Assembly: GCF_003336205.1 (NCBI RefSeq)
Contig: NZ_QPIE01000004.1
Span: 248,001-312,000 of the forward strand
Length of the DNA stretch: 64,000 bases
Origin: Chryseobacterium lacus
Lineage (GTDB): Bacteria > Bacteroidota > Bacteroidia > Flavobacteriales > Weeksellaceae
Direction of reading: 5' to 3'
Below are positions 31,561 to 35,151 of the stretch, in pieces. Positions within the stretch are counted from its first letter, which is position 1, and every line of letters begins with the position of its first letter. A program made the position numbers and the translations under genes. Under the pieces are notes generated by a model. It was not told where the DNA came from. It searched no databases and saw nothing but the letters and a program-made list of their open reading frames with translations.

Positions 31561-32604
31561 CTAATTCTTATAAAATCCATTCGTTCCAATTCCCGTGCTC
31601 AGGGTTTTCACCAATGCTCCTGAAAGATTAAAAATCTTCACCGTACTGTCGGAAGTAAAAGAGGGTTCTGAGATAAAAACATTCTGGCCAATCACATTAA
31701 ATCCGTAAACATACGCAGAACTGTTGGTATGAAATAACGGCGCACTACTGTTTCCGGTAACCGCATGAACGGTATTGTCGCCCGTAAAGAAATAGATTTT
31801 TCCCTGATCCAAAGCAAGATTTCTGGCCTGAGTAATCCCGGAAAACTGGGTTTTATTGAAAAATCCAGAATCTGCTGTGATGGTGTACAGATACGTATTC
31901 TGATCGTCAGAAGTCAGCACATACACGAAATTCTGATCAGAAACCATATCCCGGATCGGCGCATTATCAGTGAGGATAATCTCCTTATCCACTTCATTGT
32001 TGGCCGGGTTAATTCTGCTGATGGTATGTCCGGTCGGAACTTCATTCGGAGTGTAATCTACACCGTCCGTCTGAACATAAATATATCCGCCCGAAGAAGT
32101 AATTTTATCAGCATAACGCGGAAAGTGAATGTCTTTTACAAACTGATTTCCGGCATCGAAAACACTTACTTTTTTCACATCATAAAAATTGTTGTTGGTA
32201 ACATACGTGTGATTTCCGTGAAAAGCGATATATCGAGGCTGATCCAAATTCGTGGTGATGGTTCCTGTTTTCTGAAAATTATTCCGGTTCACGATTTCAA
32301 TTTTGGAAGGCTTGTTCACCACTAAATAAGCCAAATCTCCCTTGAAACTGATACTTTGCAGTACATTTCCGAGTTTTTCGCTGTTATTGTTTTTCGCGAA
32401 AATATCACTTTCATTTACAGAAAAATCATTGGAAAGGAAAGAAACGCTGGCAGTTGGTGTGCTGAACCCGCCTTCATTGGTAATAAGAATTCCGTTTTCA
32501 TAGCCGGAAATCGGTGTTTCATCTTCGGGATCATGTCGTTCGCAGGAAGTCATGAAAATGGCAGTTAAGGCAAGGCCTACAGTAATTAATTTTGAAAATT
32601 TCAT
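31561..32604 (-). CDS. Surface beta-propeller lipoprotein of the B12 uptake operon (BtuG-like candidate)
   Basis: 347-residue lipoprotein (lipobox IFMTSC, cysteine about residue 20) made of repeated beta-propeller blades of the YncE/DUF5074 kind, such as GNVLQSISFKGDLAYLVVNKPSKIEIVNR and TSSGGYIYVQTDGVDY. It lies 11 bases downstream of the BtuB-like receptor and under the same cobalamin riboswitch. In Bacteroides the surface propeller BtuG captures cobalamin and sits on BtuB; context and fold suggest an analogous role, but sequence identity to BtuG cannot be judged here. Confidence 0.78.
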   Translation of the reverse strand: MKFSKLITVGLALTAIFMTSCERHDPEDETPISGYENGILITNEGGFSTPTASVSFLSNDFSVNESDIFAKNNNSEKLGNVLQSISFKGDLAYLVVNKPSKIEIVNRNNFQKTGTITTNLDQPRYIAFHGNHTYVTNNNFYDVKKVSVFDAGNQFVKDIHFPRYADKITSSGGYIYVQTDGVDYTPNEVPTGHTISRINPANNEVDKEIILTDNAPIRDMVSDQNFVYVLTSDDQNTYLYTITADSGFFNKTQFSGITQARNLALDQGKIYFFTGDNTVHAVTGNSSAPLFHTNSSAYVYGFNVIGQNVFISEPSFTSDSTVKIFNLSGALVKTLSTGIGTNGFYKN

Positions 32605-32615
32605 TGTATAAGGTT

Positions 32616-34439
32616 TTAAAATTGGCTTCTGAGACTTATCCCGAAATTCCGTAACGGCATCGGGTAATGTTGGCTGGTTTGGTACACTTCGTTGAAAATA
32701 TTATTGGCTCTGATGCCGAGTTGCAAATGCGGACTCAGCGTGATCTGAACTCCTGCATTGATTACCGTAGAAGGGTTCAGCGCAGTTCTCCTGTTTTCAT
32801 CGGTAGAGGTGAAGGTTAGTCCGGTAAACATTCCCTGTAAGAAAATACTTCCGAACTTCGTCATGAAAGAGGCGGTACCTGAAAATTTATGTTGCGGAAC
32901 GTACATCAATGATTTTTGGGTTTCCAGATCTTTGGATTGGGTGTAGGTGTAAGCCGATTTGAGCTTCAGCTGATGATCGCCGATTTTTGCAAAAAAATTA
33001 CCATAAATTTCCGCGCCGTAGCTTTCTGCTTCATTGGTGTTGAAAGGCGTCCAGATCGTATTTCCCGGCATCCATTGTATCATATCCGAAACGCGCAGAT
33101 AATACGGAACGATTTCCAGAGTGAAATTTTTATACTGAAATTCATTCCCCAATTCAATTTGCACAGAATGTTCCGGTTTCAGATCGGGATTTCCTCCGGG
33201 TTCCCAATACAGATCGTTAAACGTGGGAATTCTGAAGTTTTTGGAAATATTCAATTTTATCGTATAAAACGGTGCCGCTTTGATTTGCGATCCGAAAGAA
33301 AACAACAGCGGACTGTTTATGTTTTCAATAAAATCCTTGCGAATGGCTCCTTCAGTGTATATCGACTTTCCCCATTGTTTTTTCACGACAAGTGCTGCAG
33401 CTCCTAAATTTCTTTTGGGATTGCTCTTTCCGGACTGAAAGCCTTCTGCTTTCTGATGTTGAAATTCAGTCTGAAGAATCAACACCAAGTTTTTAATGCG
33501 AGTCCATGATGCATCATTTTTCACCATGAAAAGTTGGCCTCCGGAACCGGTGCTTTCCGTTTTTTCAATATCAGCAAAATGACGAAACTGTTCCTCAAGA
33601 AATGCTAATTTTAAATGATTGGAAAAATGTTGGTTTTGGTGATCCCAATGCAACAGCGAACGGAATCCCTGCGTAATGTATTTTGTCTTGGTATCTTCTT
33701 CAAAAAAAACAGGAAAATACTGCAGTCCATCGCTCATTTGTGAATGAAAATACAGAACATCTCCCGTATTAAAACGATAGCCGCTGCTCAATCCAAAACT
33801 TTGTTGGCGGTATTTTCCGTTGCGGTTTACGTATTGCAAAGCGGGAACATCATAGTCATTTTCACTTTCCGTGTAAGCCGTATTAAGTTGGAAAGATACT
33901 TTATCAGTGTTGTAATTTAATTTTACAGAGGAATTTAAGGTTTCAAAAGATCCATATTCTGCAAACAGATCTCCGTTAAAACCTTTTTTAAAAGAAAGGC
34001 TGTTATTCAAATGAACGCTTCCGCCCACAGCACCGCTTCCGTAAGAAATGCTGCCGCCGCCGGGTTTTACAGCGATATGATCATAATTCAGCAAACCAAT
34101 ATTGTTGACATCCGCTTGTCCTAAAAACAGAGAATTCACGGGAATGCCGTTCCATAAGAATGCCGTTTGTTGTGCCGTAGTTCCCCGGAACGAGGGCGAG
34201 GCTGCCATTCCGCGACCGTTTTCCCGAATGTAAAAGGGCGTTTGGAAACGCAGAACTTCCGAAAGATTGACCGGGTTATTCAGCAGTTCATCTTTGCTGA
34301 TGCGAATTATTTTTTGTGATTTTTCGGCATCTTTCAGTCGGATATCGCTGATGTACACCGTGTCAATAAGAGTTTCCTGCGCATGCAGGACAGTTGTAAA
34401 TGCTGAAAACAGCAAGGCGAAAAAACAGATATGTTTCAT
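32616..34439 (-). CDS. BtuB-like TonB-dependent outer-membrane receptor
   Basis: 607-residue TonB-dependent receptor with signal peptide (FFALLFSAFTTVLHAQ). The plug contains SEVLRFQTPFYIRENG, PSFRGTTAQQTAFLWNGIPVN and GGGSISYGSGAVGGSVHLNN. The barrel carries NFRIPTFNDLYWEPGGNPDLKPE, typical of vitamin B12/siderophore receptors, and ends with RNFGISLRSQF. The cobalamin riboswitch directly upstream assigns B12 or a cobinamide relative as the substrate. The inner-membrane BtuCDF transporter is not in this window. Confidence 0.92.
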   Translation of the reverse strand: MKHICFFALLFSAFTTVLHAQETLIDTVYISDIRLKDAEKSQKIIRISKDELLNNPVNLSEVLRFQTPFYIRENGRGMAASPSFRGTTAQQTAFLWNGIPVNSLFLGQADVNNIGLLNYDHIAVKPGGGSISYGSGAVGGSVHLNNSLSFKKGFNGDLFAEYGSFETLNSSVKLNYNTDKVSFQLNTAYTESENDYDVPALQYVNRNGKYRQQSFGLSSGYRFNTGDVLYFHSQMSDGLQYFPVFFEEDTKTKYITQGFRSLLHWDHQNQHFSNHLKLAFLEEQFRHFADIEKTESTGSGGQLFMVKNDASWTRIKNLVLILQTEFQHQKAEGFQSGKSNPKRNLGAAALVVKKQWGKSIYTEGAIRKDFIENINSPLLFSFGSQIKAAPFYTIKLNISKNFRIPTFNDLYWEPGGNPDLKPEHSVQIELGNEFQYKNFTLEIVPYYLRVSDMIQWMPGNTIWTPFNTNEAESYGAEIYGNFFAKIGDHQLKLKSAYTYTQSKDLETQKSLMYVPQHKFSGTASFMTKFGSIFLQGMFTGLTFTSTDENRRTALNPSTVINAGVQITLSPHLQLGIRANNIFNEVYQTSQHYPMPLRNFGISLRSQF

Positions 34440-34477
34440 AGTTCAGGCTTTTCCTCCGAAAGCGGTATTGATATATT

Positions 34478-34642
34478 GCTTTTCAGTAAGGTTTCCTGAC
34501 TTTCACTTTTCTGCGCCTTCTCGTATCGTTACAATGGCTTGATAAGCAGAAAAATCGGATGATAAGTGATAAACTTATTTTCATCCCGTGATTTACAGTT
34601 GCGGGGACAGTTCACGAATTGCACGTGATTCCCTTTTCTGAA
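34478..34642 (-). ncRNA. Cobalamin riboswitch
   Basis: Read on the minus strand the hallmark elements appear in order: AAAAGGGAAT...GTGCAATTC, then ACTGTCCCCGCAACTGTAA (the conserved CCCGCAACTGTAA core), a paired arm ATAAGTTTATCACTTAT, the B12-box-like AAGCCATTG, and GTCAGGAAACCTTACTG at the 3' end. It lies 38 bases before the BtuB-like gene and should repress the receptor/propeller operon when adenosylcobalamin is plentiful. Confidence 0.92.
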
Positions 34643-34671
34643 AAAGTTGATGCGAAGATACGGATTTTACA

Positions 34672-35151
34672 CTAAAGAAATGAACGGTCAAAAGAAAATG
34701 GCAGTAAATCTTTCACAGAAAAAGTTTTGCAGATGATTCCTGAGGTGGAAGAGAAATAAATTTCAATGGATTCCTGCTGTTGGCTTTCATATTCCAAAAT
34801 GGATTGTCTGCATGCACCGCAAGGAGGAGTTGGAAATTTGGTTTCACCATTTTCAGGAGCGCCTACAACAAAGATCGTCTTGATTTTCGCATCAGGATAA
34901 TTGGCAGAAGTCCAGAAAATAGTGGTGCGTTCTGCACATAATCCGGACGGATACGCTGCATTTTCCTGGTTGTTTCCTGAAATGATTTCACCGTTATCCA
35001 GTAAAATGGCACAGCCCACCAAAAAATGAGAGTATGGTGCATAAGCCTGGAGTCTGGCTGCTGAAGCGGCAGCAAAAAGTTTTTTTTCCAACGCATTCAG
35101 CTGGGTATCATTTTCAAATTCCTGATATCTGATGTTGAGGTTTTTTTCCAT
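34672..35151 (-). CDS. cdd: Cytidine deaminase
   Basis: Zinc enzyme deaminating (deoxy)cytidine to (deoxy)uridine in pyrimidine salvage. The active site is seen in CAERTTIFW (zinc cysteine and catalytic glutamate) and PPCGACRQ (two zinc cysteines), plus the substrate segment APYSHFLVG and NNQENAAYPSG. 159 residues, the homotetrameric type with a slightly longer N-terminus. It ends 30 bases before the riboswitch, so readthrough from cdd into the B12 operon is possible unless the riboswitch stops it. Confidence 0.95.
   Translation of the reverse strand: MEKNLNIRYQEFENDTQLNALEKKLFAAASAARLQAYAPYSHFLVGCAILLDNGEIISGNNQENAAYPSGLCAERTTIFWTSANYPDAKIKTIFVVGAPENGETKFPTPPCGACRQSILEYESQQQESIEIYFSSTSGIICKTFSVKDLLPFSFDRSFL

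Follow-up and report, generated by a model that had tools for sequence, protein, structure and literature searches.

The closest described relatives of the locus analysed here, a cobalamin riboswitch followed by a receptor gene and a propeller gene in a 64,000-nucleotide stretch of Chryseobacterium lacus (NZ_QPIE01000004.1, positions 248,001 to 312,000; hereafter the window), are the BtuG1/2/3-BtuB1/2/3 systems of Bacteroides thetaiotaomicron (PMC6143338, PMC10404256). BtuG, reported to bind cyanocobalamin at femtomolar affinity, was defined from a set of 313 human gut genomes and stated to occur exclusively in the Bacteroidetes phylum, with the dense gut offered as one possible reason for its origin (PMC6143338). 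According to PMC10404256, BtuB is encoded at every B12 locus of the Bacteroidetes and BtuG at nearly every one. No word beginning with Flavobacteri occurs in the main texts of these two papers, and no paper on a flavobacterial BtuG was found by title in the mainly open-access literature; neither such a protein nor a form sorted by the type IX secretion system (T9SS) is described in the accessible portions of PMC12578637, PMC10710014, PMC9431301 and PMC11287211. The window pair is very probably a flavobacterial BtuG in a BtuBG-type two-gene operon for B12 uptake at the outer membrane, with B12 binding predicted from sequence relationships. The BtuG kind itself is known, and the flavobacterial pair is a newly recognised case of BtuBG.

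The pair resembles the B. thetaiotaomicron systems in the placement of a riboswitch-linked btuB beside a gene for a propeller lipoprotein with a full-length profile match, in the residues of the pocket face, Tyr316 included, and in a W-x-P segment with an aromatic tip in loop 8 of the receptor. Unlike those systems, it forms a two-gene operon present in one genomic copy, and its host is not a Bacteroides. The data directly show a cobalamin riboswitch, a gene order that is conserved among relatives, homology of the two proteins to BtuB and BtuG, residues kept in common with them and B12-dependent enzymes in the genome. The features of the locus are the following:

34469..34690, minus strand: cobalamin riboswitch aptamer, RF00174 (cmscan, model positions 1-189 of 189)
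32616..34439, minus strand: BtuB-type TonB-dependent receptor, 607 residues (Pfam Plug and barrel; BtuB chains as best solved relatives)
33039..33074, minus strand: receptor residues 456-467, W-M-P-G-N-T-I-W-T-P-F-N (aligned with the tip of extracellular loop 8 of Bacteroides BtuB)
31561..32604, minus strand: BtuG-type seven-bladed propeller lipoprotein, 347 residues, DUF5074 (Pfam, PDB by sequence, tree)
32542..32544, minus strand: lipobox cysteine, propeller residue 21 (read from the sequence, ERHDPEDE after the Cys)
32446..32478, minus strand: propeller loop NEGGFSTPTAS, residues 43-53 (aligned with BtuG2 loop Asn54-Thr64)

The aptamer matches RF00174 over its full length in the window (56.5 bits, gathering score 31.5; E 2.4e-11), lies 29 bases upstream of the receptor start codon and is the only copy in the genome sequence searched (2,375,280 bases, 99.96% completeness). 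Together with the Plug and barrel domains and the BtuB matches, this bears out the clear cobalamin riboswitch ahead of a BtuB-like receptor that had been proposed in a first-pass annotation, the end of which has to be moved from 34642 by 48 bases to 34690. The propeller lipoprotein that it had placed 11 bases past the receptor is likewise found there, as seen from the coordinates of the two open reading frames, both on the minus strand, from Cys21 and from the matches to BtuG chains. Cys21, preceded by TS and followed by the acidic ERHDPEDE segment, is likely to belong to a lipoprotein export signal, and the cysteine is conserved in 0.95 of the 44 rows of the family alignment. Residues 25-32 of the receptor, IDTVYISD (34344..34367, minus strand), were read from the sequence as what we take to be a likely TonB box.

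Sequence relationships of the propeller and the receptor

DUF5074 is the sole Pfam family above cut-off for the window propeller (29.4 against 27.2 bits), and no NCBIfam model scores above its cut-off; the suggestion that a flavobacterial counterpart may have gone unnamed agrees with this result and with the literature searched. When the single sequence was compared with the PDB (phmmer), BtuG chains came out best, 8p97_B with an E value of 2.1e-11 over residues 12-138 only. A profile built on 44 relatives from the bacterial family of the window (alignment A1) extended the match to essentially the whole propeller, with twelve BtuG-type chain sequences between 3.9e-55 and 4.2e-43; the next propeller, 1l0q, follows at 6.6e-18 with nothing in between. 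The titles of ten of these entries name surface proteins of this type from B. thetaiotaomicron or B. uniformis; the other two, 8baz and 8puj, were counted with them by sequence likeness and name. A profile search of the same genome yielded no second BtuG, with one weak partial match (E 3.4e-5).

The receptor contains the Pfam Plug and TonB-dependent receptor barrel domains. As a single sequence it finds Bacteroides BtuB chains best in the PDB (8bmx_C at E 3.2e-32, and also 8p97_A), and a profile of 16 receptor sequences (A3) reaches 8bmx_C at 1.6e-79, 8p97_A at 1.7e-77, 8blw_A at 1.5e-39 and Escherichia coli BtuB at about 1e-23. Among solved receptors the window protein is thus closest in sequence to Bacteroides BtuB. 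It shares with E. coli BtuB the TonB dependence and the role as a B12 receptor, which is predicted for the window protein; E. coli BtuB, unlike the window receptor, has no propeller partner.

In the Bacteroides receptors an aromatic residue at the tip of loop 8, Tyr538 in BtuB3, Phe in BtuB2 and Trp in BtuB1, has been suggested to assist in expelling B12 from BtuG (PMC10404256). This position aligns with Trp463 of the window receptor, and an aromatic residue occupies it in 78 of the 81 receptors of lipoprotein-type and T9SS-type loci (Trp in 68, Tyr in 9, Phe in 1), as counted from the alignment column, a regular expression having matched only 47/81 owing to spacing. The tip aromatic is not diagnostic of lid partners, since 9 of 10 receptors that stand alone also carry one. 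A different distribution is seen in the column of Trp456, where tryptophan is present in 80/81 receptors of lipoprotein-type and T9SS-type loci and in 35/37 from the class-wide sample, and in 0/10 stand-alone and 0/16 type 2 receptors (see below).

Conservation of the locus in related genomes

Within 148 genomes of the bacterial family the single sequence found a propeller match in 91 and the profile in 111; a cobalamin riboswitch is present in 136, with five at most counted per genome. Leaving aside the match in the window itself and one cut off by the end of its contig, all full-length single-sequence matches were taken and gave 84 loci, to which 16 chosen weak matches were added, and all were scanned with Rfam. 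In the 79 loci of the lipoprotein type a TonB receptor lies at most 100 bases upstream on the same strand in 76 and anywhere upstream in the stretch in 78, and a cobalamin riboswitch precedes the propeller on the same strand in 75, with a median gap of 11 bases between receptor and propeller and a median riboswitch distance of 1867. A cysteine at residues 11-45 is present in all 79 propellers, and at least two of the next six residues are acidic in 73. With so few riboswitches per genome, chance cannot account for this linkage. Orthologues unlinked to B12 receptors, which had been named beforehand as the finding that would refute the BtuG analogue, were looked for, and with 78/79 loci holding a receptor and 75/79 a riboswitch the proposal stands.

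A class-wide profile search returned a match in 159/198 genomes. The 40 loci sampled there, chosen from the top-scoring end of the list, show a TonB receptor upstream in 38 (27 within 100 bases) and a riboswitch in 31; in several of the remaining ones receptor and propeller are separated by an extra stretch, and the riboswitch may lie beyond the fetched DNA.

An import function for another ligand, such as a siderophore, with the riboswitch incidental, has a precedent in XusB, a seven-bladed propeller lipoprotein of Bacteroides that is described as binding ferric enterobactin and pairing with a TonB receptor (PMC13142918) and that shares with the window propeller the lipoprotein form, the receptor and the lid role, the last predicted for the window. 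XusB belongs to another Pfam family, DUF4374, has another ligand, and no cobalamin riboswitch is mentioned for it in the part of that paper available; the window propeller is a DUF5074 protein in which no DUF4374 was detected at E values up to 1, and on this ground a XusB-like siderophore role was rejected. With 75/79 relatives behind a cobalamin riboswitch and profile matches that are BtuG, such an import function is extremely improbable, and B12 uptake by a BtuBG pair is retained.

In the propeller tree (79 propellers, quick method, midpoint root) the proteins of the window's family and order fall on one side of a branch with a Shimodaira-Hasegawa-like approximate likelihood ratio support of 97, and Bacteroides BtuG2 and BtuG3, together with those of other orders, on the opposite side. 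A mirror-tree comparison of receptors and propellers gave r 0.85 for 64 pairs (the maximum of 999 permutations being 0.143), a value that still includes the common descent of the hosts and that lends indirect support to the predicted lid complex. For the window protein, which had been put forward as an analogue of BtuG, the data support a closer relationship: by sequence its nearest solved relatives are BtuG chains, the family profile matches BtuG from end to end and the flavobacterial proteins stand beside BtuG in the tree.

A second arrangement, here termed the type 2 pair, was observed at L090-L092, L121-L132 and the class loci L147 and L153, where a receptor of about 671 residues overlaps a propeller of about 376 residues by 4 bases and is riboswitch-linked; several of these loci have another propeller, 464 or 524 residues long, after it. 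The type 2 propellers form one clade, joined at support 100 to two loci of another family of the class, and their receptors group as the propellers do.

The binding pocket and the weighing of the assignment

Residue numbers of BtuG2 were taken from PMC10404256, the PDB chain showing the Cys32 and the MKWD signal of PMC6143338. The loop Asn54-Thr64 grips B12 in BtuG2 (PMC10404256), and its sequence NEGNFQYSNAT aligns with NEGGFSTPTAS of the window propeller. Glu55 and Gly56 (E44 and G45 of the window) are kept in 44/44 family rows and Asn54 in 41/44; Gly49, Asn84 and Gly89 are also kept in all 44, and the window residues G38, E44, G45, N73 and G79 are common to the 44 rows and BtuG2. Tyr316, which narrows the upper-ligand cavity in BtuG2 (PMC10404256), corresponds to Y300 and is found in 43/44 family rows and in 39/40 class rows. 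The NEG loop, N73, G79, N97, R124 and Y300 agree with BtuG2 and are conserved almost throughout in each of the groups compared.

Several observations weigh against the assignment. The best NCBIfam model of the receptor, TIGR01779 (TonB-B12), gives 107.3 bits, far under the curated cut-off of 599.7, and the receptor is therefore not filed under this equivalog. Trp194, Trp272 and Tyr239, which are named for the upper-ligand cavity of BtuG2, occur in 0/44 rows of the family alignment; in the window propeller, moreover, the beta5A loop is shorter and Phe replaces Tyr335. No riboswitch reached the gathering score in 4/79 loci (L047, L059, L062 and L077), L047 included, where the receptor starts at contig base 2005 and leaves room for one; in L062, alone among the 79, no receptor was found upstream. 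Lastly, among 12 riboswitch loci fetched from family genomes without a single-sequence propeller match, ten riboswitch-linked receptors of about 633-639 residues (L173-L182) have no propeller beside them and make up a separate clade (support 100). In the other two, the stretch beyond the receptor is too short (L183) and a type 2-like propeller is present (L184). A propeller is thus not obligatory for B12 uptake.

The fold search adds little, since the predicted model, made from the window propeller and one relative (132 residues of L032), is poor (mean predicted local distance difference test score 45.6, predicted template modelling score 0.47). With this model, chains of the BtuG kind took ranks 1-14 at template modelling scores of about 0.33-0.37 and identities of 17-19%, with other propellers below them and E. 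coli YncE at rank 22. An independent recruitment of a generic YncE-like propeller beside BtuB, convergent with BtuG, could draw on these low identities and on the single-sequence alignment, confined to the N-terminal third, but is very unlikely in view of the full-length BtuG profile match with its wide gap to other propellers, the shared signature residues, the agreement of receptor and propeller trees and the low rank of YncE. Descent with BtuG is preferred.

In a further explanation the operon does import B12 and the propeller serves mainly as a structural lid or plug without tight B12 binding. The absence of Trp194, Trp272, Tyr239 and the beta5A loop and the existence of BtuB-type receptors without a propeller neighbour in the same family would suit such a lid, yet the retention nearly everywhere of the NEG loop, N73, G79, N97, R124 and Y300 goes beyond the need of a mere lid. 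Trp194 and Trp272 are not taken as family-defining, because they are found in 0/40 rows of the class-wide relatives too. This explanation is accordingly considered improbable, if less so than convergence, and a B12-binding BtuG is favoured. The conserved and the replaced positions point to a propeller that would have the same corrin-binding face as BtuG2 and a different upper-ligand chamber, and since the named upper-ligand residues are mostly absent, binding mode and affinity may differ from those of BtuG2.

The window propeller also differs from BtuG2 by a larger loop at the place of Trp194. Here (window 32025-32067, propeller residues about 180-193) some 10 residues are added, an extension that the nearest relatives of the window share and that is absent from many others in the family alignment.

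Sorted propellers, B12 use and biological meaning

Seven relatives of 414-429 residues carry a T9SS sorting domain (TIGR04183 in 7/7, with scores of 44 to 64 bits, cut-off 23). These BtuG-type propellers are encoded at L060:3932-5191, L061:3929-5191, L064:3929-5191, L065:5065-6348, L066:1685-2965, L069:1740-3029 and L075:3105-4349. Five of them are the best match of their locus; four lack a cysteine in residues 11-45, and in the fifth the cysteine lies within the signal sequence as read. All seven retain the signature G-N-E-G-N-G-Q-N-R. At L060 the riboswitch is placed 210 bases upstream of the sorted propeller with no receptor upstream in the stretch, and at L065 and L066 the sorted propeller comes after a lipoprotein propeller in one operon. 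On the tree the T9SS state changes at least twice on well-supported branches and three times in all. No paper joining type IX secretion with B12 or cobalamin was found by title in the mainly open-access literature. On balance we lean towards BtuG as an ancestral, class-wide lid of the Bacteroidia, in which some flavobacteria swapped the lipid anchor for a type IX tail, giving what is predicted to be an anchored or released B12-catching protein. If true, T9SS BtuG would be comparable in idea to a haemophore.

Three further loci with BtuG-like propellers were noted. In another order a riboswitch stands 28 bases upstream of a 399-residue BtuG-like propeller with no receptor in the 7-kb stretch (L150:3571-5032). 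A 694-residue open reading frame at L147:1041-3125 contains a BtuG-type propeller, the remainder possibly being a fused domain comparable to the BtuH domain of BtuG1. At G203:C1:3695131-3696162, also from another order, the BtuG-like match reads through one in-frame TAG.

Two proteins with B12-binding domains were found in the genome of the window, methylmalonyl-CoA mutase, with MeaB nearby, and IcmF (NF045497 at 1651 bits, cut-off 1500); no B12-type methionine synthase was among the results of this search. One FecCD permease adjoining an ATPase is akin to BtuC and to siderophore permeases and scores under every cut-off.

Binding of B12, its affinity, the lid complex, the surface location and the regulation are what we infer for this pair, and a course of events can be proposed. 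At low intracellular cobalamin the riboswitch would permit synthesis of receptor and propeller, the latter being exported as a surface lipoprotein that would form a lid on the receptor. In its central pocket the propeller would capture cobamides by means of conserved loops in the first blades before passing them to the receptor, where loop 8 may help to dislodge the ligand. TonB energy would then power the import, and the vitamin would be used by methylmalonyl-CoA mutase and IcmF.

That the same riboswitch-receptor-lid unit recurs throughout the flavobacterial family and is also present in further lineages of the class speaks for a form of B12 capture older and wider than the gut, and suggests a lid-type capture system that is widespread in the class and not gut-specific. 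Many proteins now labelled DUF5074 or YncE become testable B12 binders, and the natural variants without the upper-ligand residues of BtuG2 could be used to find out what determines affinity and the choice of cobamide.

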